This document shows positions 5,847 through 55,859 of a stretch of 55,859 bases of DNA, piece by piece. The position numbers and the translations under genes are program-made. Position 1 is the stretch's first letter; each line of letters starts with the position of its first letter. Source of the stretch: ANME-2 cluster archaeon (GTDB taxonomy: Archaea; Halobacteriota; Methanosarcinia; Methanosarcinales; Methanocomedenaceae); assembly GCA_014237145.1 (NCBI GenBank), contig JAAXOC010000077.1, positions 1-55,859 on the forward strand. The letters run 5' to 3'. The notes under the pieces are model-generated. The model did no database searches. It saw only the letters and a list, made by a program, of their open reading frames with translations, and was not told the origin of the DNA.

Positions 5847-8800
5847 CTATCCCTTCACATGTATGGTTGATGTCCCGACCCCTGTCCTTTTCACATCTAT
5901 TCTCACAGGTATGCGCCGGGTAAGCGCTTCGATATGGCTGATCACTCCAATGGTCCTGCCAGATAACCGCAGGCTTTCCAGTGCATTCAGGGCGGCATCC
6001 AGGGTCTCGCTGTCCAGTGTGCCAAAGCCCTCGTCCAAAAACAGGGATTCCAGCCTTGAGCGCCCGCTGCTCAGTTCAGAAAGTGCCAGGGCCAGCGACA
6101 GGCTGACCAGGAATGACTCGCCGCCGGACAGGGTCTCGACCGGGCGTTCCTCGCCTGCATTCCACAGGTCTATTACTACCATATCCTTCAGGTCAACAGC
6201 CCTTAATGCATATCTGGAGGTTATATCAGACAACTGGCGGTTTGCGATTGTAATGAGCAGGTCGAACATGGTCTGCAAGGCAAAGTCCCTCAGGCTGTTT
6301 GCAGGTATTACCCCTGCAAGTTTCTGCCATCGTTCCATTTCAGCCCTGGCCCCTTCCAGTTTTTTTTCCTGTTCCTGTCTCTTTGTGAAGTTTTCGTTAA
6401 GTGTTTTTATCTTACCTGTAAGTCCACCTTTAAGGGTGTTCTTCTCTTGAATTGATGCAATAAGCTTCATCTCCCTGTCAAGGATATCCACGAGGTTATC
6501 GGGATTGAAAGAAGTCTGAGTAAAAACAGCTTCATGTGTTCTTATATTCTCTTCAACGGTATGCCAGTCATTGTTATACTGCTGCAGCACCTGTCTTTTC
6601 TTATCCATCCATCCAGGGTCCCTGAATGATGCCTTATGTTCCTTGGCAGATTCAAAACCTGCATTTTCAAAAGCCTTTAGGTATACGGACCAGATGGCCG
6701 ACAGTTTCTCCTGCGTCCTGTCCAGGTCATTTTTCTGTCCCTCCAGCCGGGCTGTAATCGCTGCCAGTTGCGTTTCAGCCTGCCTGGAATCTTCCAGCAT
6801 GGTATCCCTGTTATTCCCTTTTTTAATCAGGTGCGCCTCAAGTGCCGACCTTGCTGCCTCTACTCCTTTACCGCCGGTCATTTCCATGACCTGTTCAAGT
6901 AATCCGGTACCTTCATCCCTGTATACGGTAGCGGTTTCAAGCAGATTGCTGTAGCGTGTTGTATCTTCATCAAGGCGTCTGGTGTTCTCCTGTACAAAGG
7001 TTCCCAGTTCTACAAGTGTACTGTTGTTCTGCTCCAGACGCCCGATGGACTCCCGGGTATTTGATATATGCTGCTTGAATTTCTCAAATGCAAACTGAGG
7101 CGGTTCACCTGCAAATTCAGCAGGAATGATAGAAAGGAACTGCTTATTGTTATATGCAATGTCATTTTCCATTTCCATTATTTTAGCATAGATATCCTGC
7201 ATCCTTTGAGCTATGCCTTCGATCTGGTCATTCAATGTATTAATACGATTGCTGTTGGCCTCGATCTGCTGCTCTGCCAGTTTCAGTTCACCTTCGGTAA
7301 AATCTATCTTTTTTGACAGGGATTCTATTTTACCAATCCGCTTATCGCATGCAGTAACCTTCTTTTTTGCCAGACTTACGAGTTTTTTTAGTATGGATTC
7401 AAGGCCTTTTTTTGCATCTTCCAGTTCTGATCCGGCACTTTGCACATTATCCCTCGCCATATCAATGGAACCTTCCCTGTCAGGTTCGTGTTTACCGGAA
7501 TCGGGGTGCTCAGTTGAACCGCATACAGGGCACGGTTCCCCAGCTGTAAGATGCTCCCTGCGCAGGATAAGTGCCTGATTGGTGGCAGCTACGGCCTTCT
7601 CTTCGGCCTGGCAGCGTTTGACCTTTTCCTCAGCAGTCATTACCTGCTGTTTCATAAGTTCCATCCTGTGCTTGAACTCATGCAATTTCTCATTGAATTC
7701 CTGAACCGATGCGGTCAGTATTGTATCATCAAATATCCAGCTTAATTGTTCATAGGACTCAAGGAACCTGCTGCCTGCATCCCTTACCTCACCCCATGCC
7801 GACCCTAATTTGCGCCAGTAGTAGTTGTTACCCTCTTCAGTCAGCGGTTGCAGTGCCTGCCTGACAGCTTCCAGGCGGGACGTGATGTCATTTTTCCTGG
7901 TTTCAATGACTTTTCCCTCATTTACAGTCCTTTCCATCTCTTCTGTTTTTGCCTGGTGTTCGTTCTTTTCCCTCATCAGAGTTTCCTGTTTCTCCCCTAA
8001 TGTTCGTTCCTTCTCGGAAAGAGAGGCAGCAGTTTGTGACGCCCGTGCTAGCAGGTCATCCGCATTTTCAGGCAGGGGATTATGTTCAAGGAACTCCCTG
8101 TCACCCTTAAGCTGCCCTTCCAGGGCCGCGATCTCTTTGTTCTTCTGCTGTATCTGGTTGTTAAGTCCGTCCAGTTTTACTTTAAGGTCATTTGCTTCCT
8201 TTTGTTTTTTATCTGCTTCCCCTATTTGCTCCTTGCCACGGGTTTCCAGGACAGCTGCATCATTATATGCATTTTCTTTCTGTTCAGCGTCTTTTCTTGC
8301 AGTTTCAAAATCCTGGTTTGCCGCATCATATTTCGCATTCGCTTCATAGAATCGTTTTTGTCCTGTATCTTTTTCATGTATACTCTCTTCCAGTGCAGTC
8401 TCCAGCTTTTCCACCCGCTCCTTTTCAGTATGATACGATCCCATCTCTGAGCGGATGTCTGAAGCCTTCTGTGCCCGCTCGATCTCAGCCTTAAGGTTCT
8501 CCATATTGTCCTTCACTGACAGCAGTTCCTGCTGTTTTTTCCTGTCCTCATCCAGTTTATTATGGGCATCCACCCGCCGCTGCTCTTCTTCCTTTTCTTT
8601 TTCCAGGGCGGTCCTGGGTTCGTTGAGACTAAGCAGTTCAGCTTCAAGCCGGGCCAGTTCTTTTTCTGCCGTACCGATCTCTTCAGCAGATACCTGCGGT
8701 ATAGATTCCAGGCCGGCCTCTGCAATATCGTATTCACCTGTCACCTTCCTGACCTGCTGGTTCAGGTTCTCCTTCAGCACCTCAAACTCTCCCATGCCCG

Positions 8801-9350
8801 TGGTGGCCTCAAGTATCTGTCTCCTCTCATCGGCACTGGCCTTTAAGAATGCTGCAAAATCGCCCTGTGCCAGCAGGATAGAGCGCCTGAAAGCATTAAA
8901 ATCCATGCCCAGTATACTTGTAACTGCGTCCTCGACCGACATATCTGCCATGTCACTGCCGCTTTTTCCCTTCCGCCTGCTGGTAATAAGTTCCCCTGTA
9001 TCTGCACGGAGCAATTTTACTTCGGGTTTGACATCACCTTTTTTGCTCCGCCTTGCCCGCCACTCAGCCAGGTACTGCGTGTCATTTGTCTGGAACACCA
9101 CCTCGGAAAAACCTTCTCTGGTTCCCTGGCTTAATAGATTGACCGGATTGCTGCTGCCTGTTCCATCCAGCCGGGGTGTCCGGTTATACAGTGCCACTGA
9201 TATGGCATCCAGCAAGGTTGTCTTACCCGAACCGGTTGGGCCTGTTATGGCGAACAGGGAAGCATCAGACAATGGTTCTTTGGTAAAGTCCAGGTGAAGC
9301 TCATCTTTGAAACTGTTGATATTCTTCAGGCACAGCGACATGAGTTTCAA
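5847..9350 (-). CDS. sbcC: SbcC, ATPase subunit of the SbcCD nuclease (Rad50-like)
   Basis: A 1167-residue SMC-like ATPase that, with SbcD, opens DNA hairpins and processes double-strand breaks. Walker A is GPTGSGKT at residues 37-44. Long coiled coils follow, with the zinc hook CPVC at about residue 607, then a second coil, the signature LSGGES (about 1070) and Walker [12 protein letters not shown] (about 1100). Its length and the ITGPTGSGKTTLLDA form fit bacterial SbcC better than the shorter archaeal Rad50. The gene follows sbcD with a 2-bp gap. Its 3' end is copied at 1..460 and 2686..3070. Confidence 0.95.
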   Translation of the reverse strand: MKLMSLCLKNINSFKDELHLDFTKEPLSDASLFAITGPTGSGKTTLLDAISVALYNRTPRLDGTGSSNPVNLLSQGTREGFSEVVFQTNDTQYLAEWRARRSKKGDVKPEVKLLRADTGELITSRRKGKSGSDMADMSVEDAVTSILGMDFNAFRRSILLAQGDFAAFLKASADERRQILEATTGMGEFEVLKENLNQQVRKVTGEYDIAEAGLESIPQVSAEEIGTAEKELARLEAELLSLNEPRTALEKEKEEEQRRVDAHNKLDEDRKKQQELLSVKDNMENLKAEIERAQKASDIRSEMGSYHTEKERVEKLETALEESIHEKDTGQKRFYEANAKYDAANQDFETARKDAEQKENAYNDAAVLETRGKEQIGEADKKQKEANDLKVKLDGLNNQIQQKNKEIAALEGQLKGDREFLEHNPLPENADDLLARASQTAASLSEKERTLGEKQETLMREKNEHQAKTEEMERTVNEGKVIETRKNDITSRLEAVRQALQPLTEEGNNYYWRKLGSAWGEVRDAGSRFLESYEQLSWIFDDTILTASVQEFNEKLHEFKHRMELMKQQVMTAEEKVKRCQAEEKAVAATNQALILRREHLTAGEPCPVCGSTEHPDSGKHEPDREGSIDMARDNVQSAGSELEDAKKGLESILKKLVSLAKKKVTACDKRIGKIESLSKKIDFTEGELKLAEQQIEANSNRINTLNDQIEGIAQRMQDIYAKIMEMENDIAYNNKQFLSIIPAEFAGEPPQFAFEKFKQHISNTRESIGRLEQNNSTLVELGTFVQENTRRLDEDTTRYSNLLETATVYRDEGTGLLEQVMEMTGGKGVEAARSALEAHLIKKGNNRDTMLEDSRQAETQLAAITARLEGQKNDLDRTQEKLSAIWSVYLKAFENAGFESAKEHKASFRDPGWMDKKRQVLQQYNNDWHTVEENIRTHEAVFTQTSFNPDNLVDILDREMKLIASIQEKNTLKGGLTGKIKTLNENFTKRQEQEKKLEGARAEMERWQKLAGVIPANSLRDFALQTMFDLLITIANRQLSDITSRYALRAVDLKDMVVIDLWNAGEERPVETLSGGESFLVSLSLALALSELSSGRSRLESLFLDEGFGTLDSETLDAALNALESLRLSGRTIGVISHIEALTRRIPVRIDVKRTGVGTSTIHVKG

Positions 9351-9352
9351 GG

Positions 9353-10552
9353 CTATATCTCCTGCTCCCGACCTATATCCAGCAATTCATTAAAAGTGGT
9401 AAGCAATTCGTCCAGTTCAGTATCAGGCCCGCTCTCGCCGAATTTGTATTTGTAGAAGTCCTGGAATATTTCCACAGGGGTCCTGGTCTTAATATCCTCT
9501 GTGGATAAAATTTCACCACCTGCCCTGGGCAGTACTGACTCCACCACAAGCACCTTGCCGCCCTTTAGGGCGAATGCCTGGCGTATTTCATCTCCCACGC
9601 CAACGGCAGGGCCGTCCAGGAGTACTTTCGCCTCAATGTACCTGTCCTTCCAGTCCCCGAAATTGGCCAGTTGCGTCAGTTCGTCAGGAGTCCCATCCAC
9701 CCTTACCAGTTCCCTGAACACGGGCACAGTGACCTTTTCGATATTACACGCAACGTCAGTGCCGAGGTCGACCAGGAGGACTTTCTTGCCGTATTTCTTA
9801 TCATACTCTGCCTCCTTGAAACTGAGGGGCAGGGGCGAACCTGGATATACAATAGGACAGCCACCTCCCTTGATCTGCTGTTGCTTGTGCAGGTGCCCCA
9901 GTGCAATATAATCTACATCACCGGGAAGGTCATCGGTCCTGATCGGCGCAATACCGCCTATCTGCACCAGCCGCTCCGAGTCTCCGAATGTGCCGCCCTG
10001 GATGAAGTAGTGTCCCATAAACACTTTAATATCGGCATCCATTGCCGACAGGCATTCATCATATATCCTTTTCATAGCCTCCCGGTATCTCAGCGAGCGT
10101 TCTATTTCTGCTTCCAGCGGGATATGGGGCAGAATATCGCTTTCGTTCAGGTAGGGCACGGCGGCAAAGGCAGCAGTTTGGCCATTTGCGTCCAGGTGCA
10201 CTACGCAATCCTTTGCAGAATCACGGATGCCGCCCACGACATGCATGCGGGCCATCTTCAGGAATTGCCCTGGTGCGGCCAGCCTCACTGCTGAATCGTG
10301 GTTGCCTGCGATTATGACTGCATGGGTGCGGGTCTTCCCGTACAGGTCGAACAGGAACCGGTAGTACAGGTCAGTTGCCCGGGCAGGGGGCATTGATGAA
10401 TCAAAGACATCCCCTGAAACAAGCAGGACATCTACATCCCTGTTAATTATGATTTCCAGCAGCCAGTCCAGGAACCGGGTATGTTCATCCAGTCTGTCCT
10501 CTCCATAGATCTTTTTGCCTATATGCCAATCAGAAGTGTGAAGTATGCGCAT
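9353..10552 (-). CDS. sbcD: SbcD, Mre11-type nuclease subunit
   Basis: A 399-residue calcineurin-like phosphoesterase, the nuclease partner of SbcC. Metal-binding motifs in order: DWH (8-10), GDVFD (47-51), GNHD (83-86), GHYF (around 185) and GHLH (around 225). The C-terminal part should bind the base of the SbcC coiled coil. It is the first gene of a two-gene operon with sbcC. The role in hairpin cleavage is known for the family; nothing here looks defective. Confidence 0.95.
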   Translation of the reverse strand: MRILHTSDWHIGKKIYGEDRLDEHTRFLDWLLEIIINRDVDVLLVSGDVFDSSMPPARATDLYYRFLFDLYGKTRTHAVIIAGNHDSAVRLAAPGQFLKMARMHVVGGIRDSAKDCVVHLDANGQTAAFAAVPYLNESDILPHIPLEAEIERSLRYREAMKRIYDECLSAMDADIKVFMGHYFIQGGTFGDSERLVQIGGIAPIRTDDLPGDVDYIALGHLHKQQQIKGGGCPIVYPGSPLPLSFKEAEYDKKYGKKVLLVDLGTDVACNIEKVTVPVFRELVRVDGTPDELTQLANFGDWKDRYIEAKVLLDGPAVGVGDEIRQAFALKGGKVLVVESVLPRAGGEILSTEDIKTRTPVEIFQDFYKYKFGESGPDTELDELLTTFNELLDIGREQEI

Positions 10553-42339: not shown

Positions 42340-42708
42340 TCAATATTCTATGTCCTGCTTAATAAATACTATTATGCTGAGGATGATAAGTACCAGGGCT
42401 ACCAGGAACTGGATTATTGCATACTGAATTACCAGGACGTTATTCCTGCCATACAGAACCATCAGGTCCTGGGTGATGGGGGAGATCATGACAACGGTCT
42501 GTACCATAGATAATATCATTTCTACTGCAACACTAAAGATTGGAAGCAATATCCACAGCATGGCAAGAGTGGCGACAATGGTGGTGCTTTTGCCTGCTCC
42601 GTTGGGGCCAATAAGTCGGTGTATTGTACCTTCTTTTACATGCAAGCTGACATTGCCCAGTGCTGTGGTACTTCCACATTTTTTTAAAAGTCCATTTACT
42701 GTTATCAA
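42340..42708 (-). pseudogene. ABC transporter chimera: ATPase start fused to permease end
   Basis: A 122-residue frame. Residues 1-45 are the beginning of an ABC ATPase (ALGNVSLHVKEGTIHRLIGP and GPNGAGKSTT, Walker A). Directly after it come three hydrophobic helices typical of the end of an ABC-2 permease (VLVIQYAIIQFLVALVLIIL). Walker B, the signature and most of the permease are absent. The simplest reading is an in-frame deletion across two adjacent genes. Function is unlikely. Confidence 0.72.
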
Positions 42709-44843: not shown

Positions 44844-46064
44844 ATGGATCTAACTTTTGGAATTGAAATTACCCAATTATTCAAATCGGCCGCACAAACA
44901 GGAATATATGTTATTTCAACAAACCTATTATATCCGGTTATAATTATACTGTTGAGCTTACTTGCCTGGAGTTTCATAGAGATTGGCGGTTTCTTCACCG
45001 AGTGGCGCGCCAGGCACAGTGATTTCTGGTTGATCGAGAACGGAGCTTTAAAAGCTAAGGGATCGATGGAAGCAAACGATTTTGCAAATGTAGCAGTTAT
45101 TCTTAAAAAATTCTGCTCAAACAGGTTTCATTATTTTTATATTAACCACCTTTCCGAATTCCAGGATGACTTCCATAACAAGGATCTCATGCATCTCAGA
45201 GTTGAAAAGCTGTTACAAGAATGTGATGCTGAAATAATTAAAAAACTTGAAAAGTCAAGGTTTGTGGCAAAAGCAGGTCCCATGTTCGGTCTGATGGGGA
45301 CACTCATACCAATGGGACCGGCACTGGCCGGGCTTGCACGGGGCGATATCCAAACGCTGTCTGATAACCTTATTATTGCATTCGGTACAACAGTTGTAGG
45401 ACTGATGGCTGGGGTGAGCGGGCATATGGTCGCCATGATCAGGGACAGATGGTATACAAAGGATATGAGCGATATAGAATATATCTCTGAAATATTATTT
45501 AGCGAACATGTTATTAATATTGAAAAATCAAAACAACCGGATCCGGACGAACTATTAAAGAATGATATTTATGATACGGTAAAGGTAAGTTCCAGATTCG
45601 TTTATTATGACATTTTCTTTACGCCAACAAGTGTGGTCATTGCAAGGACTGCAGGCAGTATACTATCCCAACCGCTTATTCTTGCGGCTTTATTTTCTGT
45701 AGTGAACATCGTGATCCTTGTTATCGCTGAAGCAGGTTATACCGCACTGCCTTCTTACCTATATTTGACATTCATCAATCTATTGATGTTAATAATAATT
45801 TTATATTCATTATTTTTAACAAGAGAACATGAAAAACAAAAATCCTATGAACTGAGTGAACTTCCTCCGGATGAGATACTGAAAAACGATACACGTAACG
45901 TTAAGATACGCTATTCGGATATTAAAGAAATTAATATTTCGAAATCTGTAATGAAAATATTCACAGACAGCCAATGTCTTAAAACCGGTCGTATTGTGTC
46001 CCGGAATTATTTGAATAAGATACAGACCTTACCCATTTCTGTGACAATTGGTGAGAAAACATGA
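44844..46064 (+). CDS. MotA/TolQ/ExbB-type proton channel protein
   Basis: A 406-residue membrane protein. The conserved channel segment is clear: AGPMFGLMGTLIPMGPALAG at about residues 146-165, then NLIIAFGTTVVGLMAGVSGH. A helix near residue 30 precedes it and two more follow at about 270-320. ExbB/TolQ/MotA proteins form pentamers around single-span partners and turn ion flow into motion or force. The start of the next gene overlaps the stop (ATGA). The two downstream genes look like its partners. Confidence 0.85.
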   Translation: MDLTFGIEITQLFKSAAQTGIYVISTNLLYPVIIILLSLLAWSFIEIGGFFTEWRARHSDFWLIENGALKAKGSMEANDFANVAVILKKFCSNRFHYFYINHLSEFQDDFHNKDLMHLRVEKLLQECDAEIIKKLEKSRFVAKAGPMFGLMGTLIPMGPALAGLARGDIQTLSDNLIIAFGTTVVGLMAGVSGHMVAMIRDRWYTKDMSDIEYISEILFSEHVINIEKSKQPDPDELLKNDIYDTVKVSSRFVYYDIFFTPTSVVIARTAGSILSQPLILAALFSVVNIVILVIAEAGYTALPSYLYLTFINLLMLIIILYSLFLTREHEKQKSYELSELPPDEILKNDTRNVKIRYSDIKEINISKSVMKIFTDSQCLKTGRIVSRNYLNKIQTLPISVTIGEKT

Positions 46065-46399
46065 GATATATGAACCGCAGAAAAAGTAAAACATATTTAG
46101 ATGACGATCCCATGAGCAGTGTTGCGAACCTTTTTGATGTTGCCATGATATTTGCCATCGGACTGCTTGTGGTTGCACTGACGCACTTTGGGGTAGAAGA
46201 ACTGATCACCCAGAGCGATGTCACTATTGTAATGAATCCCGGACAGGAGAACATGCAGGTGATAATCAAACAAGGCGATGATATAGAGAAACTTGAACTG
46301 ACCAAAGAAGAGGTTTCTACAAGCGGGAGGAAGTTCGGAACAATCTACCAGACTGATAGTGGAGAGTGGGTGCTTGTTAAGGAGGCGTCCGGTGATTAA
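46061..46399 (+). CDS. DUF2149 single-span protein (ExbD/MotB-like partner)
   Basis: A 112-residue protein. DDDPMSSVANLFDVAMIFAI starts the conserved DUF2149 segment: an acidic N-terminus, one membrane helix (about 24-42), then a small extracellular domain (VIIKQGDDIEKLELTKEEVS). The shape and the neighbouring channel gene suit the ExbD/TolR/MotB position; the Asp at the start of the helix could be the ion-binding residue. Translation is coupled on both sides by overlaps. Confidence 0.85.
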   Translation: MRYMNRRKSKTYLDDDPMSSVANLFDVAMIFAIGLLVVALTHFGVEELITQSDVTIVMNPGQENMQVIIKQGDDIEKLELTKEEVSTSGRKFGTIYQTDSGEWVLVKEASGD

Positions 46400-47882
46400 A
46401 CTGACATTAATCCTGTGTTTATTCTCAGTAATGGTTATACTGGCTACTATTGCATCTGCAGATGAGATACAATGGGAGTCCGGCGGTAAAGCCGTACTAT
46501 ATCAGGGTGATAATTACACACTTGAAGAATATGCAGTAGAGGTTGCCGATTTTGATAAAGAGAACGGCATGGTTCTATTACATTTGACAAAAAATGGTGT
46601 GATTTTAAGCAAGGTTGTTCTTAATGCAACGCTTGATGAGTTTATTTATGAGGAACAGATCAAGATCAATATTTACAATACTACTGATGATGCTTTATCA
46701 CATGCTCCGACCAAGTGGGAAAATCCCCGTATACATATTGAATTAAATATAAAGGAAAAACCGTGCATTTATCTTGGTGTCACCACTGATCGCAAAAAAT
46801 ATAAGCCAACTGATTCTGGCATACGTGTTACCTCTAAGATTGTGAACAATGGCGCAGCCATCAATGATATGAATGTGTATATTGATCCGGACGGGTTGCG
46901 TGTAATCGATGGAAGAACCACTAAACAAGTGGATACACCAGTCAACTCATCCAGTACAGTGACCACCAAACTGAGGGTCCCGTCACTGTTACGCAAGCAA
47001 ACATTCGATATACCGGTCTGCCTGAGCTGGGTGGATATTAATGGAGTAGCACGCAATCTGTCACGCTCAACATCAATTACCGTTCTGCCCATCTGCGACC
47101 TCAAAGTAACAAAAACGGCAGGGGATAGTTCTATGGATTTGTATGTACCTGTTCGTATCGAAGTAGAGAATACCGGTATTGTCAATTTGACGGTCGAGTT
47201 AAGTGACCAACTTCCACCGGATTTTGAGCTGGTTGATGGTTATGACCTGAACTGGCATTTTGATCTCAAACCACAGGAGAAGAAATGCTACTCATATTTC
47301 CTGAAAGCGCAAAAACCAGGCGAATATCCCACTGACTCTGCCATTGCACGGTGGAACATGCAGGGAGAAAATATTAGTGTAACATCCAATGCACCTTCAA
47401 TAATAATAAACGGGGCATGCATCATCATCAACAAAACCGCGGACTCCAGAGAAGTAGATATCGGGGATAATATGACGGTCACGCTATCGGCTATAAATAC
47501 AGGCAATGCCCCAGCCACTGTTTATGTGACCGATCATCTACCGGCAGGTACGCGCCTGCTCGATGGAAATGCCACACTGGGAACCTTATTAGAAAAGAAC
47601 CAATCGTGTTCAACAACGTATGTTATCACAATTGGATCAGCTGGAAATATAATACTTCCATCACCTGTCGTTGAGATCGTCAATGACGCTTATTCCAGGG
47701 TGCATATATCAGAGATGGTTTCCATTAATGTCTCATTGCCCCCGGATGCAACGCCCGGACCTGAACCAGCTGTCCAGTATCAGGCAGCAGAAAGCATGGA
47801 GTCAAGACCGCCAGTATTTGAGACTGCATTCACTATAGTCGTCATACTTCTTCTCGGGTTTTTGATCAGGAGGATCGAATGA
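46392..47882 (+). CDS. Secreted DUF11-repeat protein with C-terminal anchor
   Basis: About 496 residues from GTG 46392, eight bases after GGAGG and inside the end of the DUF2149 gene. The signal peptide (LTLILCLFSVMVILATIASA) is followed by a beta-rich N-domain and two or more DUF11/CARDB-type beta-sandwich repeats (ICDLKVTKTAGDS..., then IIINKTADSREVDIGDNMTV). One membrane helix and an Arg-rich tail close it (FTIVVILLLGFLIRRIE). It is an extracellular, membrane-held protein of the same operon as the ion channel. Confidence 0.8.
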   Translation: MIKLTLILCLFSVMVILATIASADEIQWESGGKAVLYQGDNYTLEEYAVEVADFDKENGMVLLHLTKNGVILSKVVLNATLDEFIYEEQIKINIYNTTDDALSHAPTKWENPRIHIELNIKEKPCIYLGVTTDRKKYKPTDSGIRVTSKIVNNGAAINDMNVYIDPDGLRVIDGRTTKQVDTPVNSSSTVTTKLRVPSLLRKQTFDIPVCLSWVDINGVARNLSRSTSITVLPICDLKVTKTAGDSSMDLYVPVRIEVENTGIVNLTVELSDQLPPDFELVDGYDLNWHFDLKPQEKKCYSYFLKAQKPGEYPTDSAIARWNMQGENISVTSNAPSIIINGACIIINKTADSREVDIGDNMTVTLSAINTGNAPATVYVTDHLPAGTRLLDGNATLGTLLEKNQSCSTTYVITIGSAGNIILPSPVVEIVNDAYSRVHISEMVSINVSLPPDATPGPEPAVQYQAAESMESRPPVFETAFTIVVILLLGFLIRRIE

Positions 47883-47892
47883 GTCTTTCACT

Positions 47893-50800
47893 TCAACTTT
47901 TCTTCCTGCGAAACCCTCTGGGTAGCATGAGATGATGCTTCTCATCAATAAGCGAGCGCTTCTCGCTGCGGTGTCCGTGATACAGTAATCCCAGTATAAA
48001 GATCAGGCAGATAATAAAAGCTGCTGGTAAAGCTCCTCCCCCACCGGAACTGCCAGAACTGGCATCACCAAACAGGAATCCTGTGATCTCGCTTATTCTA
48101 TCTTTTACAGAACTGCTTGTATCACCTGAATATTCCATTCCGCCTGCTCCTGCCTCACTACTTTCGCCAGTGCCATCTCCGGATCCGATCCCGTCACTGG
48201 TTCCACCGCCACTGCCGCCGCCATGTCCGGGACCATAGCCAAAAAAGGTCTCGTTCGTGACCACTTCGATCTCTATTGTCATATTGTTATTCGTTTTATT
48301 TACATCGTCATCCAGATTAACAGTACCTGTGAGGGAATATGTCCCTGTTGCATCCAGAGTCCAGTTAAAACCTACCGATGTTCTGTTATCAATGTCATTA
48401 TTGTTATCATTGTCAGTACCATCATTATTTTGCATCGAGGTAGTTTCATTATCCTCCAGCCTGTTATTGATCATCAGGCCCACATCAAACGTGTTGTTCG
48501 TCTCAGACCCGATGTTTTCAATATGCACCGTTATATTAATGTTCATTCCAACCCGGTTCACATACGGTGCATCAATTGCTGTTACAGTAAGGTCGGATTG
48601 ATGATCTCCAACTATAACATCCACTGTACACCAGTTATTCATTGGGTCTGACTCGGTCACGGTTTTATCGGCATCAACCGTTACCATCAGACGATGATTC
48701 CCGGTTTGTTGGGGTGTCCAGTTAAAGGAAACATTTGTTACATCACCGATATCCAGTGAAGGAACTGTAATTTTATCGATTTGCCTGCCTTTATGCGTAA
48801 GTGCCACACCGAAACTTTCGTTCACACTTGATTCACCAATATTATTAATTTGTACAGTTATGACCAGCGTTTTTCCTGCATTTATCTTTTCAGGCACATA
48901 TATTCTTTCCACAGTAAGATCAGGTAATATGGTAGAACCGAATGCGATCACCCGGCCAACGCCTATTGTATAGACCATTCCATTAGCTATAGCAGGCGAT
49001 GAACCCCCGTAGTCCGAGTGCCAGAGCACGTCTCCTGTAAACGCGTTAAGGCAGTATAATCCGGCATATCCGGGTACCATTCCGGTTCCTTCCTTTCCAA
49101 CAAAAACCTTTTTATCTGCAGATACTGCGGGCGAGTTTGTCCAGCTTCCCAGCTTGTCCTTCTCGTTCTTCCATATCAATTCACCATTTTTCACGTCGAA
49201 ACAATATATCACGTGTTCACCGAATCCCGATGATATATATACATAACTTCTGGTTGAGCCGGATGGTGCATAAAATGCAGGTGTTGAATCTGTTGTTATA
49301 ATACTGTTCTTCCAAACCTCAGTTCCATTACCCGCATCAAGTGCATACAACATACCAAGTCCGTTGAAATTATAGGTCGTAAAATATATAACGCCGTCTG
49401 AAACCGTAACCGAACCGCATACATTCCAGTCCACGGTTGTGCTCCAGAACTCATAGGCATCGTTCATATCTATGGAATATACTTTCGATCGTTCATCCGG
49501 ATATCTAAAATCACCGAAGTATGCCCTGCCATATGCAACAGCAGGCACAGATTGGGAATTTTCAACTATCTCAAACCTCCATATCTCGGTACCATTGCCT
49601 GCATCAAGGCAGTAATAGTGTCCCCCGCCCCAGCTTCCGACATACACTTTCCCGTCAGCCACCGCAGGACCGCCATTGACAGAACCTCCTCCATCCGGAA
49701 ATCTAAATGTCCACAATACCGGTCCCCTATCCTCTTTTGTTGCATCGATACAGTACACCCCGTTCCCGGAGGAAATGTAGATCTTACCCTTATGGTAGGT
49801 AGGTGTTGCCCACGACCCATATTCCCTGGGAGCGATCGGTGTACCCCAGAGCACCTTGCCATCTGATTCGTTCAAGGCTACAAGATAGGTATAATCTGAA
49901 TATAACTGATTCCATCCGGCACAATATACAAATATTTTTCCGTCTGCAACAATGAGAGATGAAGAACCTTCTGCGCCGATATCTTCACTCATCCAGGCAA
50001 TCTCATTTGTATCAGGTGCATCTGATAGTGAAAAACCGGCATTACTGTGGAACTCTCCCCATTCCGAAGCTGAATTTTTATTATATACGTAAAATAGATC
50101 GGATCGGTCCACTTCTATGACGGCACCCCAGCGTGCGATTACCTTTACCTGGTATTTTCCATCAATTGCATAACTCGTATCCCACATATACGACCCATTG
50201 TTTGTTATGTTTGTTGCAATAGCATTCCAGCTATGGCCCAGGTTTGCACTGTAGAGCAGATCGATCGATACTGGCTCTTCGTATGTGGCATTCCATGCTA
50301 TGTTCTGAATACCTGTCCATATCTCACCGCCCAGAGGTGAGAACAATTCAAGATCTATCCGGTTTGCCGCAATTATACCTGCTGTCAGGTTATTATTCGT
50401 TTCATTCGTTTCTGCAACGTCATTATCCGGATCCAGGTAGACCGTAAGATTGTATGTTCCATTTGTATCAGGAGTCCAGTCGAACCATATGCTGCTGTTA
50501 TAGGTGTCAAGTTCCGTCTTTTTATCGATGAGGATATTATTTGCAAACATGGAGGCATTAAATACTTCTGCCGTGCCGTTTACGTCTATAGTTATCCGGT
50601 TCGTTTCATTAAGGAAAATAACATAGGGCGTTATCTGTTTTGGGATGATATCAGGAAGTACGACTGTGAAATCCTGTGAAATATTGTTATTATCCTCATT
50701 TGTCTCTTCGATGTCATTATCGCAATCGACCACAGCCTGTAGCGTGCAGTTCCCAAGAACATGTGGTTTCCATAAAACAGTGGCATCTGTACTCCCGTAA

Positions 50801-53800
50801 CATATGATACCGGATGTTTTACTCACTCCTGTTCCATTTTCTATTAGCGAGACATTAAAGTACTCGGCTGTACCTTCAACCGACAGGATAACTTTATTGG
50901 TTGCATTCACATAGATCGGTATGGTCTCGAAAGCTGCCGGAACAAGGTCTGGATTTTCCACGTTCACCACTTTTGTTAGAACATTATTTTCCTCGTTACT
51001 TTCCAGCATGTCTTCACCTGGATCTACCACAAGTTCAAGTGTATGTTCACCTATGGCGGATGGTCGCCAACTAACCGACAGCACGAGGTTATTTTTTATT
51101 CCCGTTATCATTCTGTTGAGAAGAATCACTCCATCCACAGTTAATGTTACATTGAAATACTCATCGTTCGTACCATTTATAGTAAGCGTCATATCATTTG
51201 TTACATTCACAAACGTGTGTGGAGGCTGAGTTATCACAAACGGATACAGATCAGGACGTAATACATTTATCTCGTGTGTTAACCGGTTATTGTTCTCATA
51301 CAACTCCCTGATCTGGTCACCTGCATCAACTACAAAGGTCAGGTTGTGAGTTTCATTCTTATCAGGTTTCCATGTAAATGATACCGGCGTTATCGAGTCA
51401 CTCCATACCGACCGTACACTTTGGTTCCCGATAGGACCCCCATCTGAGAACAGGGCGACATCAAAGATCCCGCCGTTGTTTTTAAGATATATGGTGAGGA
51501 TGGTGGTCGTATTGACAAATGTCTCATCCTCGATAACAATATCAACAATGGAAATATCTGGCATTTTATAATCCTCTCGTGTCGTTTTGATCATCACTGG
51601 ATGGATTGCTCCATATAGTGCAGGGATCGAATAGGTAGTTGTCACCACCGGATACATGGACATATTCAGGGTTTTGTTGAATGATCCATCGTCCTGCTGC
51701 AGGTCCATCAGGTAATCCAGCGGACTTTTACCATTTGAAAGGTAGGTCAATGGATCCTGTCCAGCTGCTACGATCGCCTGAATTGCATAAGAGGTTGTTC
51801 TTGCATCTGAAAAACCGCCATCATCTTCCTGTTCTGTTTTAAGGTAATCCAATGCATTCGTTATCACTAGTGAATTTCTGCTCTCTCCAGCGGCAATGAG
51901 CGCCTGGATCACGAATGATGTTGTTTTGACATCACTGTTCCCATAAGGTGAGATCCATCTTCCGTCTTCTTTCTGTTGATCTGTTATATTTGATGCTGCG
52001 TTTGAGATCATCCTGGTATCCTTATCTCCACAAGAGACAAGTGCAAGGATTGCAAGTGCATCATCCTCCACGATATCCGGAGTTCCGAACTGCTCGCCGT
52101 CATAGAAGGATTTGAGCATCAGGAGATAATTCACATCCCCGAAGTTTGTTGGATCTTCCCCAATTGCACTTATCACAAAGATCATTCGTGTAAAGTCTTC
52201 AATGGTTGTGAGGTCGCAGGGGTTGGTGCCAGGTGACAGTCCTGTTACAGAGTCTTTCGGCTCATTTCTTAGGTAGTCAATGAGCGAATTTCCACATGGT
52301 TTCCATCCTCCACTTGCAGGGTCTTCACCCACTGCGGTTATCCCAAGTGCAGCCCATGCAGAATTAGAGAATCCACTAAGACTGCCACTTCTCGGCATCT
52401 GTGACCTATTCAAAAAATCGAGCGCAGATATAATATTATCAGTATAATTAAACATAGGCGAGGATACCGTTACATTGATCGATAATTTATTATCTGTTTC
52501 ATCCACTTCCCTCATCTCATTTTCAGGGTGCACATCAACAGTTAGATTGTATGCCCCCACATCCCCTGGTACCCATATAAAACGCAGTATCCTGTTCTCC
52601 CTGTTTTTCATTGTGATTACCTTGGATTCAACTTCGATATCGTTTACCGTCAGTTTTACCTCTAAGCGCTCAGATTCCGGATATGTTCCTTCACGTTCAA
52701 TTGATGCAAGTATTCTATTTTCCCTGCCGGTATAGATCAGGGATGGTCTTGAAATCCCTGTTGTAATGAGGTTAAAGGTGAGGCCATGCGGTTCGATCAT
52801 GGGATAATGATCGTTTATCCTGCCGCTGGTATACGGTGAATCTGCAATTCCATCCCCATTACTGTCATTGCTGGTAAACCCATTCCAGTAATTTCCGGTA
52901 TAGTTCCTGTATTCGCTTGCATTGTACAGGTACTTCATCGAAGCTGCCGAATTCCAGTGGTTGCATCCGTGATCTATTGCAGCTATGCCGCCGTTCTCAT
53001 GTGGAAATAAATTGTTAAGGTGTAGTGTGTTATTGAGTGTGTTATTATCTGCGAGATTAATACACTGTACAAAATGATAGATCGTGTTATTGCTAATCAG
53101 ATTGTTTCTGGAGTTTACCAGCGATATGCCTACAGTTCCAATCGGTTCGGTGAGATACCTTTTTTCTTTACCTGACAGGACGTTGCTTACGATGCGGCAG
53201 TATTCGGAATTTACAAGTTTTATGGCATTATTCGGGGCATCTTCGGTGTGACCATCATGATGAAGTATCAGATCTGTCAGCTTTATGTTATTCGATCGTT
53301 CAACCGCAACAAGCCGTATATTTTGAAGCGAGGTATTTTCATTAATGCCCGTGGCTTCTGCTGTAAATCTACGCAATTCTATCTGGCTTGAGTTGAATAT
53401 CCGTATCATGTCAAGTCCGGGTTTGTTTATAAACGCAGTTCGTATCATGATTTTTGCACATTTGCTGCTGCCGATCAGCTTTAGATGGTGCTTATCATCT
53501 ATTGTTATGGGCGAATACTGATCTCCTGTGCTGAGCCAGTGTTCGCCATCCCGAAGAAAAATGAAAGTGTGCGGTCCAGCATGATCTATCGCATCCTGGA
53601 TCGTGGAATAATCATTCGGTACATGAATGACCGAAAGGGGGGTTACGTTCACGTTCTTTGTTATTTTGTTATTGTCCCTGTTCAATTCATTGAGTTGATT
53701 CTCCAGATCTGCTGTAATAGATACTGCATAATTTCCAGTATCTGCCGGAGTCCATGTAAAATGAACGGCAGTATTTTCACCTGCTGGTAGTGAACTGATG

Positions 53801-54930
53801 GTTATGGTATCCACCAGTGTTTCATTGACATCAAATGAAAGATTGAACAGATCGATATCCCTTATGCCCGTGTTTTTGACTGTTATGTATATATCATCCG
53901 GATAATCCGGATACATATATTCTGGCATTTCAACTTCCACTGCAATGTCCGGAATTGCTCTGGTTCTGGAGGTGAGATTAAAATCGGATAGTCCTCCGCA
54001 GTTGATATCGTCTGGAGTTATGGTGTGATCTGTCAAGTTGATACTTTCGCCATCTGTGAAATTGAACTGCAGCACATCACCGCTGCTTATATCTGTGGTG
54101 TTAAGGATGAGACGGTAATAATTATTGCCTGACCGGGTCATAGGGTGCCAGTTGTCACTGGTGTGTAGATTTGTTATGCTGATAACCGGGTTGTTGTATT
54201 CTGTGTTATCCTCATAGTGTGTCCATCCGCTGATCACGAACAGGGTATCCAGTTCTGGCACGGCATGCGTGAAAGGCCTGTTCGTGAAATTGAGATTTGT
54301 CAGATATTTGTCAGCAAGGGTTACCTGCTTGAAAGAAGCATTAGTATGCATCCATCCTGCTTTGTCTTCTTCGCTCACGTTATAGCTTCCCGGGAGAAGG
54401 TTCGTAAACTCGTAGTAGCCTTGTTGATTGGTTGAAGCAGTGGATACAACCACACTTGTGGCATTCTTAAGCGTTATATTCCATCCCTGGATCCCTTGTT
54501 CTCCCGGGTTCCACAATCCATTGCCATTGGTATCATTGATCTTGTAGCCTGAGAGGTTTATTCCATTTGATGTAAATGTAAAATTTGAGTTGGTTATCCC
54601 GCCGTTGTCGATATGACTGCCCGTAATCGTGTGTTCGATTGTCTGCGATTGTGAACTGCACGATATGTGGAAGTGCAGGATATCACCAGTACTGATACTG
54701 CTGCTGTCAAGCACGAGACGGTAATAGTTTGATGTGGAGTGCACCAGAGCGGTCTGGTTCACACCAGTGGTCAGGTCTGTTATAATAATATCCGGTCCGT
54801 TGCACGGGCTGCCGTCGGAATTGAAGATATAGCCACTGATCACGAACGGTGCTGTCTGTGCTATCGCTGATGCAGCACAGGCTATACACATCATTGAAAC
54901 AAGCACATAGATGGATATTTCTCGACACAT
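47893..54930 (-). CDS. Giant multidomain surface protein (2345 residues)
   Basis: After a signal peptide (1-24) come, in order: a beta module; an SdrD-B-like domain (KINDTNGNGLWNPGEQGIQG, about 105-195); a second beta module; CARDB (about 330-425); a NosD-type beta-helix (VPNDYSTIQDAIDHAGPHTF, about 435-715); CARDB; an alpha-alpha toroid of prenyltransferase/squalene-cyclase-like repeats (SNSAWAALGITAVGEDP, about 820-1110); several CARDB repeats (SWRPSAIGEHTLELVVDPGE); a PQQ-like beta-propeller (ADGKIFVYCAG, ALDAGNGTEVWK, about 1690-2020); two CARDB; a Gly-rich linker; and a membrane helix (AAFIICLIFILGLLYH) with a basic tail. It is a cell-surface scaffold. The frame is intact. Confidence 0.88.
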   Translation of the reverse strand: MCREISIYVLVSMMCIACAASAIAQTAPFVISGYIFNSDGSPCNGPDIIITDLTTGVNQTALVHSTSNYYRLVLDSSSISTGDILHFHISCSSQSQTIEHTITGSHIDNGGITNSNFTFTSNGINLSGYKINDTNGNGLWNPGEQGIQGWNITLKNATSVVVSTASTNQQGYYEFTNLLPGSYNVSEEDKAGWMHTNASFKQVTLADKYLTNLNFTNRPFTHAVPELDTLFVISGWTHYEDNTEYNNPVISITNLHTSDNWHPMTRSGNNYYRLILNTTDISSGDVLQFNFTDGESINLTDHTITPDDINCGGLSDFNLTSRTRAIPDIAVEVEMPEYMYPDYPDDIYITVKNTGIRDIDLFNLSFDVNETLVDTITISSLPAGENTAVHFTWTPADTGNYAVSITADLENQLNELNRDNNKITKNVNVTPLSVIHVPNDYSTIQDAIDHAGPHTFIFLRDGEHWLSTGDQYSPITIDDKHHLKLIGSSKCAKIMIRTAFINKPGLDMIRIFNSSQIELRRFTAEATGINENTSLQNIRLVAVERSNNIKLTDLILHHDGHTEDAPNNAIKLVNSEYCRIVSNVLSGKEKRYLTEPIGTVGISLVNSRNNLISNNTIYHFVQCINLADNNTLNNTLHLNNLFPHENGGIAAIDHGCNHWNSAASMKYLYNASEYRNYTGNYWNGFTSNDSNGDGIADSPYTSGRINDHYPMIEPHGLTFNLITTGISRPSLIYTGRENRILASIEREGTYPESERLEVKLTVNDIEVESKVITMKNRENRILRFIWVPGDVGAYNLTVDVHPENEMREVDETDNKLSINVTVSSPMFNYTDNIISALDFLNRSQMPRSGSLSGFSNSAWAALGITAVGEDPASGGWKPCGNSLIDYLRNEPKDSVTGLSPGTNPCDLTTIEDFTRMIFVISAIGEDPTNFGDVNYLLMLKSFYDGEQFGTPDIVEDDALAILALVSCGDKDTRMISNAASNITDQQKEDGRWISPYGNSDVKTTSFVIQALIAAGESRNSLVITNALDYLKTEQEDDGGFSDARTTSYAIQAIVAAGQDPLTYLSNGKSPLDYLMDLQQDDGSFNKTLNMSMYPVVTTTYSIPALYGAIHPVMIKTTREDYKMPDISIVDIVIEDETFVNTTTILTIYLKNNGGIFDVALFSDGGPIGNQSVRSVWSDSITPVSFTWKPDKNETHNLTFVVDAGDQIRELYENNNRLTHEINVLRPDLYPFVITQPPHTFVNVTNDMTLTINGTNDEYFNVTLTVDGVILLNRMITGIKNNLVLSVSWRPSAIGEHTLELVVDPGEDMLESNEENNVLTKVVNVENPDLVPAAFETIPIYVNATNKVILSVEGTAEYFNVSLIENGTGVSKTSGIICYGSTDATVLWKPHVLGNCTLQAVVDCDNDIEETNEDNNNISQDFTVVLPDIIPKQITPYVIFLNETNRITIDVNGTAEVFNASMFANNILIDKKTELDTYNSSIWFDWTPDTNGTYNLTVYLDPDNDVAETNETNNNLTAGIIAANRIDLELFSPLGGEIWTGIQNIAWNATYEEPVSIDLLYSANLGHSWNAIATNITNNGSYMWDTSYAIDGKYQVKVIARWGAVIEVDRSDLFYVYNKNSASEWGEFHSNAGFSLSDAPDTNEIAWMSEDIGAEGSSSLIVADGKIFVYCAGWNQLYSDYTYLVALNESDGKVLWGTPIAPREYGSWATPTYHKGKIYISSGNGVYCIDATKEDRGPVLWTFRFPDGGGSVNGGPAVADGKVYVGSWGGGHYYCLDAGNGTEIWRFEIVENSQSVPAVAYGRAYFGDFRYPDERSKVYSIDMNDAYEFWSTTVDWNVCGSVTVSDGVIYFTTYNFNGLGMLYALDAGNGTEVWKNSIITTDSTPAFYAPSGSTRSYVYISSGFGEHVIYCFDVKNGELIWKNEKDKLGSWTNSPAVSADKKVFVGKEGTGMVPGYAGLYCLNAFTGDVLWHSDYGGSSPAIANGMVYTIGVGRVIAFGSTILPDLTVERIYVPEKINAGKTLVITVQINNIGESSVNESFGVALTHKGRQIDKITVPSLDIGDVTNVSFNWTPQQTGNHRLMVTVDADKTVTESDPMNNWCTVDVIVGDHQSDLTVTAIDAPYVNRVGMNINITVHIENIGSETNNTFDVGLMINNRLEDNETTSMQNNDGTDNDNNNDIDNRTSVGFNWTLDATGTYSLTGTVNLDDDVNKTNNNMTIEIEVVTNETFFGYGPGHGGGSGGGTSDGIGSGDGTGESSEAGAGGMEYSGDTSSSVKDRISEITGFLFGDASSGSSGGGGALPAAFIICLIFILGLLYHGHRSEKRSLIDEKHHLMLPRGFRRKKS

Positions 54931-55056
54931 TCGGGGTTATACCTCCATCAAATGATAGAATCAAGTGCGCTAATGCAGGTCATACATTGTAGTCATGTTT
55001 TTGTTTCAGAGAGGTAGTGGATTTCAAGTATTCTCTTGCATTTGTTTTTCCAGATA

Positions 55057-55761
55057 TTATCCGTTCTTATTATCTTTACGCAACAGCCACACCGTAATCA
55101 ACATAACCGATAGACCAGTCAATAATCCAAACCTTGGAATACCATTATTATCTTCCCCGGATGACCCATTTGTCTCATCTACAATTTCTGTGGATTCGGC
55201 AACAATACCTTCTCCATCTGCTTCTCCTCCGGATACCGTTGCAATGCTTGTAGCAGAATCATCTGCAAATTTTGTTGCAGTGGGATTAATTGTGGATTTT
55301 CCTGAACTGCGATCAATGTCATTGTTTCCACTGTGCTGGATCTTGTCATAACTATCATAATCGAATAATTCTACGGAAGGAATTTCAAATAGATTTGAAT
55401 GACTTCCCGTGTATACAATATTACAAATAATCACAGTACCGCTATGAGCTGTACTTGCATCCCATGCTGTTACAATCACAGAGCCTTTTGTGTTTGTGTT
55501 ATCTATATCCGAAGTCTGCACAGTAAGGGCATTCCCATCTCCTGATGTTACCCCTGTAACCTCGACTCCGGATGTAGTAAATTCGATATTGGCATCACAT
55601 GAACCAAGATTTTTCACATCCCTGACAATCAATGTCTTGGATCCATCCTCCAGTGTCTCAACATCTCCAAAATATAACTCAGCCGTTGCAGACACAGGCA
55701 GAGCTGACATTATCACAAGAAAAAGCACACAAAATGCTATTGTTAATATTTTCATATTCAC
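55057..55761 (-). CDS. Cohesin-like surface protein with PGF-type tail
   Basis: A 234-residue protein: a signal peptide (1-26), then a domain reading LYFGDVETLEDGSKTLIVRD, VTGVTSGD and GTVIICNIVYTG. This resembles the cohesin fold of archaeal dockerin-binding proteins. A low-complexity linker and a C-terminal segment IPRFGLLTGLSVMLITVWLL with RKDNKNG follow. The latter has the turn, helix and basic end of an archaeosortase signal, with PRF in the place of PGF. Next to it lies a dockerin gene end (55794..). Confidence 0.7.
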   Translation of the reverse strand: MNMKILTIAFCVLFLVIMSALPVSATAELYFGDVETLEDGSKTLIVRDVKNLGSCDANIEFTTSGVEVTGVTSGDGNALTVQTSDIDNTNTKGSVIVTAWDASTAHSGTVIICNIVYTGSHSNLFEIPSVELFDYDSYDKIQHSGNNDIDRSSGKSTINPTATKFADDSATSIATVSGGEADGEGIVAESTEIVDETNGSSGEDNNGIPRFGLLTGLSVMLITVWLLRKDNKNG

Positions 55762-55767
55762 ATCAGC

Positions 55768-55795
55768 AAAAAAAAGGCATCCGTAAGGATGCCTT
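55768..55795 (-). terminator. Intrinsic-type terminator of the dockerin gene
   Basis: On the minus strand AAGGCATCC pairs with GGATGCCTT over a four-base loop and runs into eight Ts. The stem begins inside the stop codon region of the dockerin-containing frame (55794..55796), so it ends that transcript before the cohesin-like gene. Confidence 0.75.
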
Positions 55796-55859
55796 ATGGT
55801 GCCGCCTCGTTTCCTACAAGATATTTTGCCAGATAGAGTGCATCTGCAGAAGTTATCTT
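55794..55859 (-). CDS. C-terminal end of a dockerin-domain protein (partial)
   Basis: Only the last 21 residues are in the window: KITSADALYLAKYLVGNEAA, then Pro and TAA. ITSADALYLAKYLVG is the second helix half of a type I dockerin repeat (normally after an EF-hand-like DxNGDG loop). With the cohesin-like neighbour it suggests calcium-dependent protein pairing on the cell surface. The rest of the gene lies beyond the window. Confidence 0.75.
   Translation of the reverse strand, partial: KITSADALYLAKYLVGNEAAP

Follow-up and report, generated by a model that had tools for sequence, protein, structure and literature searches.

We analysed the whole contig JAAXOC010000077.1 (C77; 55,859 nt, hereafter the window) of a 2.97-Mb genome in 118 contigs from an ANME-2 cluster archaeon (ANME, anaerobic methanotrophic archaea). 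An operon near its end encodes an ExbB/TolQ-type channel protein, a DUF2149 protein and a DUF11 surface protein, and faces the gene of a giant surface protein (Table 1). The initial annotation had described the three genes as translationally coupled, and this operon is real: all three proteins match their Pfam families, and the genes overlap, ExbB and DUF2149 by 4 nt and DUF2149 and DUF11 probably by 8 nt. The DUF11 frame is open from 46359, the first possible start; judged from the sequence, the likely start is the GTG at 46392, which has an AGGAGG upstream and which therefore implies the 8-nt overlap with the DUF2149 stop.

The window ExbB is of the long form, with a C-terminal extension that contains two further transmembrane (TM)-like segments. 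Its residues T153 and T183 align with T148 and T181 of Escherichia coli ExbB, the pore threonines of that protein, and are invariant in 11/11 ExbBs of class D, the loci in related genomes at which a DUF11 gene lies directly 3' of DUF2149. A sequence search of the PDB with the class-D ExbB alignment gave no match at 0.01. The window DUF2149 protein has a single TM helix (residues 17-43) and a small extracytoplasmic beta domain (AlphaFold2 mean predicted local distance difference test score, pLDDT, 74.8), and its L24-F25-D26 is invariant in 58/58 sequences. In the AlphaFold2 model of the DUF11 protein (pLDDT 83.7) a signal is followed by an N-terminal beta domain, three immunoglobulin (Ig)-like domains, a disordered linker and a C-terminal TM helix, and the fold matches of this model are Ig-like stalk domains. 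An anti-phage (Zorya-like) reading was rejected, as no PADLOC match was obtained among the four window proteins tested.

The giant contains eight CARDB domains, a PQQ_2 (PQQ/BamB-like) propeller, SdrD_B and a squalene-cyclase-like toroid, and ends in a C-terminal TM helix with a basic tail. Its stop lies 10 bp from that of the convergent DUF11 gene. It has no ExbB-DUF2149 pair of its own and adjoins the class-D operon instead, although it is of the kind found in class G, which is defined by a giant gene directly before ExbB. It matches the six most complete class-G giants at 1094-1270 bits in phmmer (three fragments at 48-943 bits), and the giant of one fetched locus (L150) at 1700 bits, with the same parts (CARDB, NosD, toroid, propeller). 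The toroid was also considered as a transcobalamin-like domain; this was rejected, since its PDB sequence matches are squalene-hopene cyclases and similar proteins and include no corrinoid binder.

Table 1. Features at the operon and contig end, in window coordinates.
Feature	Position	Strand	Basis
ExbB/TolQ-type (HmuU-like) channel protein, 406 aa	44844..46064	+	PF01618, 34.6 bits (cut-off 22.9)
DUF2149 protein (HmuV-like)	46061..46399	+	PF09919, 91.8 bits
AGGAGG ribosome-binding-like site within 3' end of DUF2149 gene	46380..46385	+	sequence reading
DUF11 surface protein	46392..47882	+	PF01345, 41.4 bits
Surface protein of the class-G giant kind, 2345 aa	47893..54930	-	Pfam domains, phmmer
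Surface protein with signal and TM helix, 234 aa, in position of cohesin open reading frame (ORF)	55057..55761	-	cohesin identity sub-threshold
Terminator-like hairpin and T run, between dockerin-like and cohesin-like genes	55774..55795	-	weak
Dockerin-like ORF, last 21 codons and stop, cut by contig end	55794..55859	-	sequence reading

Comparison of the pair with hmu and TonB systems

The ExbB-DUF2149 pair represents HmuU and HmuV of the Bacteroidota heme (hmu) operon, a known uptake operon on which the initial annotation was silent. The available part of PMC10434189 gives hmuYRSTUV as HmuY, a TonB receptor, CobN, a hypothetical protein, a MotA/TolQ/ExbB protein and DUF2149, and a Prevotella plasmid directly displays the hmu gene order. 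The archaeal genome itself holds a second DUF2149 copy, tied to a chelatase: on contig C25 the order is DUF2162, ExbB, DUF2149 and a 1558-aa CobN-family protein (HmuS/CobN-like chelatase) with a C-terminal TM helix. This copy resembles the HmuT-U-V-S set, with DUF2162 in the HmuT-like place. The window cassette shares the overlapping ExbB-DUF2149 gene pair with hmu, but has neither an adjacent CobN-like HmuS nor HmuT/DUF2162, and its Ig-like DUF11 partner faces a giant.

In the accessible text of a 2026 paper (PMC13227078), HmuV is described as homologous to no known family, and HmuU and HmuV are assigned the role of TonB energiser in the part of PMC12583661 at hand. On Trichlorobacter lovleyi pGLOV01 (L200, 5495-16904), a set of TonB receptor, DUF2162, ExbB, DUF2149 and CobN adjoins a separate ExbB-ExbD-TonB set. 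This arrangement argues that HmuUV is unlikely to be simply the energiser of the TonB receptor.

Compared with TonB-ExbB-ExbD, the window shares the channel family, the conserved threonines and a one-TM, stator-like partner with an Asp near the start of the helix, and differs in its C-terminally anchored partner and in the lack of an ExbD match, of TonB and of an outer-membrane receptor. The TonB C-terminal domain (PF03544) and the TonB-dependent receptor (PF00593) were found in 0/2 genomes searched, the archaeon's own and the single-contig genome of a relative (G018), and canonical ExbD scored over its cut-off in 0/148 genomes of the phylum (two weak matches). DUF2149 had been placed by the initial annotation in the ExbD position. 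What stands of this is the layout, with a single TM helix and an Asp near its cytoplasmic end; no ExbD match was obtained by hidden Markov model (HMM) or profile. The identification of DUF2149 as a plain ExbD was thus rejected, given the HMM null and an hhalign profile probability of 1.5%; in that one profile alignment D26 of DUF2149 falls on D25 of ExbD.

In the archaeon's own genome and 60 relatives, 70 of the 74 MotA/ExbB matches over the cut-off lie within 2 kb of a DUF2149 gene on the same strand (four matches below the cut-off were left out). The by far strongest MotA/ExbB match among the relatives (G015:C105:11631-11990, E 5e-32) has no DUF2149 beside it and is possibly bacterial contamination.

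Partners of the pair in related genomes

DUF2149 was found in 37/60 relatives and in the control, Methanosarcina acetivorans. Of 82 matches, 76 could be sorted into classes by their neighbouring genes (below, L numbers denote fetched loci, G numbers the genomes of relatives, and f2 and f4 families of relatives). These comprise 27 loci of class H (DUF2162 and CobN), 10 of class T (DUF2162, no CobN seen), five of class N (long DUF2162 with NosD/beta-helix proteins), 21 of class D, nine of class G, one of class P (purple-acid-phosphatase-like partner) and three unassigned. A maximum-likelihood phylogeny of the concatenated ExbB and DUF2149 sequences of these 76 pairs groups them by partner class. 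The 44 DUF2162-linked pairs are split from the other 32 with a support of 100; class G with L050 (99), the 17 class-D sequences with a long ExbB (99) and class N (100) form supported groups, and the phosphatase pair groups with two class-D pairs with a short ExbB (96). The 21 sequences of class D as a whole do not form a single clade.

Among named genomes, pairs accompanied by CARDB or other surface proteins occur in ANME-1, Methanoxibalbensis and unplaced Methanomicrobia records, and pairs are also present in Argoarchaeum, GoM-Arc1, Alkanophaga and a truncated ANME-3 contig. In Actinobacteria (L170, L171, L172, L179) the pair directly follows a secreted, C-terminally anchored propeller-like protein of 560-650 aa with weak Pfam matches. 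Actinobacteria are another group that has the pair but no TonB-type outer membrane.

The partners have a common C-terminal architecture. A hydrophobic helix followed by a short, mostly basic tail is present in 46/49 partners with a complete end (CobN 15/16, DUF11 16/18, giants 9/9, NosD 5/5, phosphatase 1/1), as opposed to 41/228 other ORFs of at least 300 aa (p 1.5e-24). Of the three exceptions, those at L033 and L063 are apparently broken genes, judging from their neighbours, and that at L086 is just under the threshold.

In class G the giant stop overlaps the ExbB start in 9/9 loci, by 4 nt in eight and by 1 nt in one. A homologue of the window giant (CARDB) stands at 11/21 class-D loci, or 11/15 of those in which the sequence continues for 1 kb or more past the DUF11 gene, whereas none was found at 26 class H, T or unassigned loci of the same families (285 kb) or at 13 loci of f4. 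The Fisher test gives 2.6e-5 for 11/21 against 0/25 control loci (L050 dropped), and 1.3e-6 against 0/38. DUF11 and giant genes overlap by 4 nt in L037, L044 and L211, the last of which we infer to be ANME-3 from its place in f4. In G018, the two CARDB frames over the cut-off and longer than 2000 aa (2675 and 3182 aa) each abut one of the two DUF2149 genes, and a third CARDB frame, 2075 aa long, does not reach the cut-off. Another species of the same genus (G004) shows the same convergent arrangement: its giant, 72% identical over the part compared, faces a DUF11 gene end that matches a class-D contig (C225) over 141 nt. The pattern that would have told against the initial annotation, with the three genes regularly lacking surface-protein neighbours or lying only beside an unrelated transport system, was not observed: such neighbours are common in relatives, and it is the chelatase-class loci that are without giant homologues. 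ExbB-DUF2149 is genuinely linked to large surface proteins, and this linkage is conserved.

The initial annotation had also named a cohesin and a dockerin gene beside the giant. A surface-type ORF does lie there, but its cohesin identity is sub-threshold, and all that is present of the "dockerin" is 21 residues next to the contig end. None of the genome's 15 cohesin matches is on the window contig. Among the fetched loci, the 55057-55761 ORF finds its best distant matches in a cohesin ORF with Pfam support (E 0.021) and in an ORF that directly precedes a class-G giant (E 0.025). The hairpin call next to it is weak, because 10 such sites were found where 7.7 were expected.

Elsewhere in the window, positions 42340-42708 hold a short remnant of an ATP-binding cassette (ABC) transporter, the start of an ATPase fused in frame to permease-like helices, which is probably a decayed gene. 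An AbiEi/AbiEii-type toxin-antitoxin pair lies at 702-2473 and an SbcC/SbcD (Rad50/Mre11-like) pair at 5847-10552.

Candidate roles at the archaeal surface

The recurring pairing of putative motor and giant suggests a TonB-like way to power the cell surface without an outer membrane. Whether the window operon is such a force-transducing unit for the archaeal surface seems to us evenly balanced. In the mechanism we propose, ExbB, as an HmuU-type channel, and DUF2149, as an HmuV-type protein of ExbD-like layout, would form a membrane complex driven by an ion gradient. This complex would have as its output a protein that is held in that membrane by its C-terminal helix; in the window, this would be the Ig-like DUF11 protein. 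The motor probably acts on its anchored partner, and it is likely, with slightly less confidence, that the giant belongs to the same machine: the convergent CARDB/toroid/propeller protein, whose relatives, unlike it, share an operon with ExbB-DUF2149, may join as output. The foremost candidate role of the unit would be to operate an apparatus at the surface that captures chelated metals or corrinoids/tetrapyrroles, and a metal complex as cargo can be proposed tentatively.

This choice of cargo follows from importer genes at three loci together with the chelatase class, which favour chelated metals or corrinoids. In L150, the giant, ExbB and DUF2149 genes are followed by those of a BtuF-like binding protein, a diphthamide-synthase-family protein and a BtuC-like permease. 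In L086:8994-10119 and L073:4081-5206 (f2, on the ANME-2c side), genes for a Peripla_BP_2- or ferrichrome-type binding protein, a FecCD permease and an ABC ATPase run into DUF2149-DUF11. This importer is of the BtuCDF/FecCD type (B12/heme/siderophore kind) and stands where ExbB would, and L086 has a giant too. At these two loci the ion channel is replaced by an ATP-driven transporter. According to the available part of PMC10846266, two CobN-like BtuS proteins of Methanosarcina barkeri increase on Fe(II)/Cys and FeS2. For the window's own unit, any cargo is a guess.

Several observations weigh against the force-transducing reading. As for DUF2149, no match to ExbD (PF02472) was obtained for the window protein at E<=10, ExbD does not appear for 58 DUF2149 members in a listing that covers 25 of 27 families, and a fold search gave weak mixed matches (best Z 3.1) with no ExbD among the matches listed. 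As for the pairing, the DUF2149-DUF11 operons of L086 and L073 are without ExbB, and 4/15 class-D loci with at least 1 kb beyond DUF11 show no giant homologue, one of which (L045) has a propeller protein instead. A 66%-identical giant in the ANME-2b-type G010 has no ExbB in the 7.8 kb fetched downstream, and in L213 and L214 no DUF2149 was recognised beside ExbB (L214 ends there). In methanogens, distant DUF11 relatives occur by themselves. The cohesin identification is weak, since the 55057-55761 ORF has no Pfam match to PF00963. Finally, complex formation, ion flow, force transfer and cargo are predictions.

Some features of these loci may be recorded here. In L213:3404-12147, and also in L214, two similar 860-aa proteins with terminal dockerin-like motifs precede ExbB, and in L213 a 167-aa protein with a PGF-CTERM-like end follows it. 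A MacB-type ABC partner, suspected for the stand-alone DUF11 relatives, was found at none of the methanogen loci examined.

Instead of capture, the motor may serve adhesion, using the ion gradient to pull or tension giant CARDB/cohesin-dockerin proteins that would attach ANME cells to one another or to their sulfate-reducing partners. CARDB, cohesin and dockerin are abundant in ANME and are discussed as adhesion parts in the available portions of PMC5244752, PMC9012536 and PMC10553843. The class-G giant of G018 has cohesins shortly before it, in the spot that the cohesin-like ORF occupies in the window, and cohesin ORFs precede the G010 giant (C34). The D, G and N loci of named genomes are also mostly from ANME and alkane oxidisers, the 13 classified loci of f4 being of class H. 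We nevertheless consider adhesion rather unlikely as the motor's task: its sister class works for a chelatase, genes of importers sit in operons together with DUF2149-DUF11-giant, and nothing ties the motor itself to adhesion.

It is more doubtful still that ExbB-DUF2149 is an accessory of chelatase or transport that stands beside giants by mere clustering of surface genes. Although hmu is the best known operon with the pair, and cohesin and CARDB genes are numerous in these genomes, this reading is improbable in view of the stop/start overlaps in all class-G loci, of the split of the tree by partner (support 96-100) and of the complete lack of giant homologues at 39 chelatase/DUF2162 or unassigned loci. 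Least probable is a motor for assembly or export that would help giants through or into the S-layer, by analogy with the GldLM motor, which serves type IX secretion: very large cargo with C-terminal anchors and tight translational coupling would suit it, but the pair is also used by partners that are not unusually large (chelatase, phosphatase and beta-helix proteins), and the scanned neighbours, a minority of all neighbours, showed no secretion genes.

The force-transducing reading may extend beyond the window, though we would put this forward with more doubt than the metal-complex cargo. ExbB-DUF2149 could be an ion-powered driver of general use that depends on neither TonB nor an outer membrane and moves interchangeable, C-terminally anchored exoproteins (chelatases, Ig-like stalks, CARDB giants of 2000-3000 aa, beta-helix proteins, phosphatases and Actinobacterial propeller-like proteins). 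It would power giant surface machines in ANME and alkane-oxidising archaea, with an ABC importer replacing the channel on DUF2149-DUF11-giant in some lineages.

We found no description of a coupling of the HmuUV-type channel pair to giant archaeal surface proteins in the literature searched, which covered no preprints and few subscription papers. The ANME cohesin, dockerin and CARDB surface proteins described in PMC9012536 and PMC5244752 have the same domains and come from the same organisms as those of the window, but neither paper speaks of a coupling to an ion-channel pair: TolQ, MotA, CARDB, CobN and ExbB are not mentioned in PMC9012536, nor TolQ in PMC5244752.

If the reading holds, ion-gradient motors perform mechanical work at the surface of cells that have no outer membrane, too. 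The unsettled role of HmuUV in the heme operon would be to drive the chelatase rather than the TonB receptor, which would in part answer what archaeal HmuS/CobN homologues do, a role called unclear in the available part of PMC12583661. For ANME, it would provide a testable link between giant adhesion-type proteins and the supply of metals or corrinoids.

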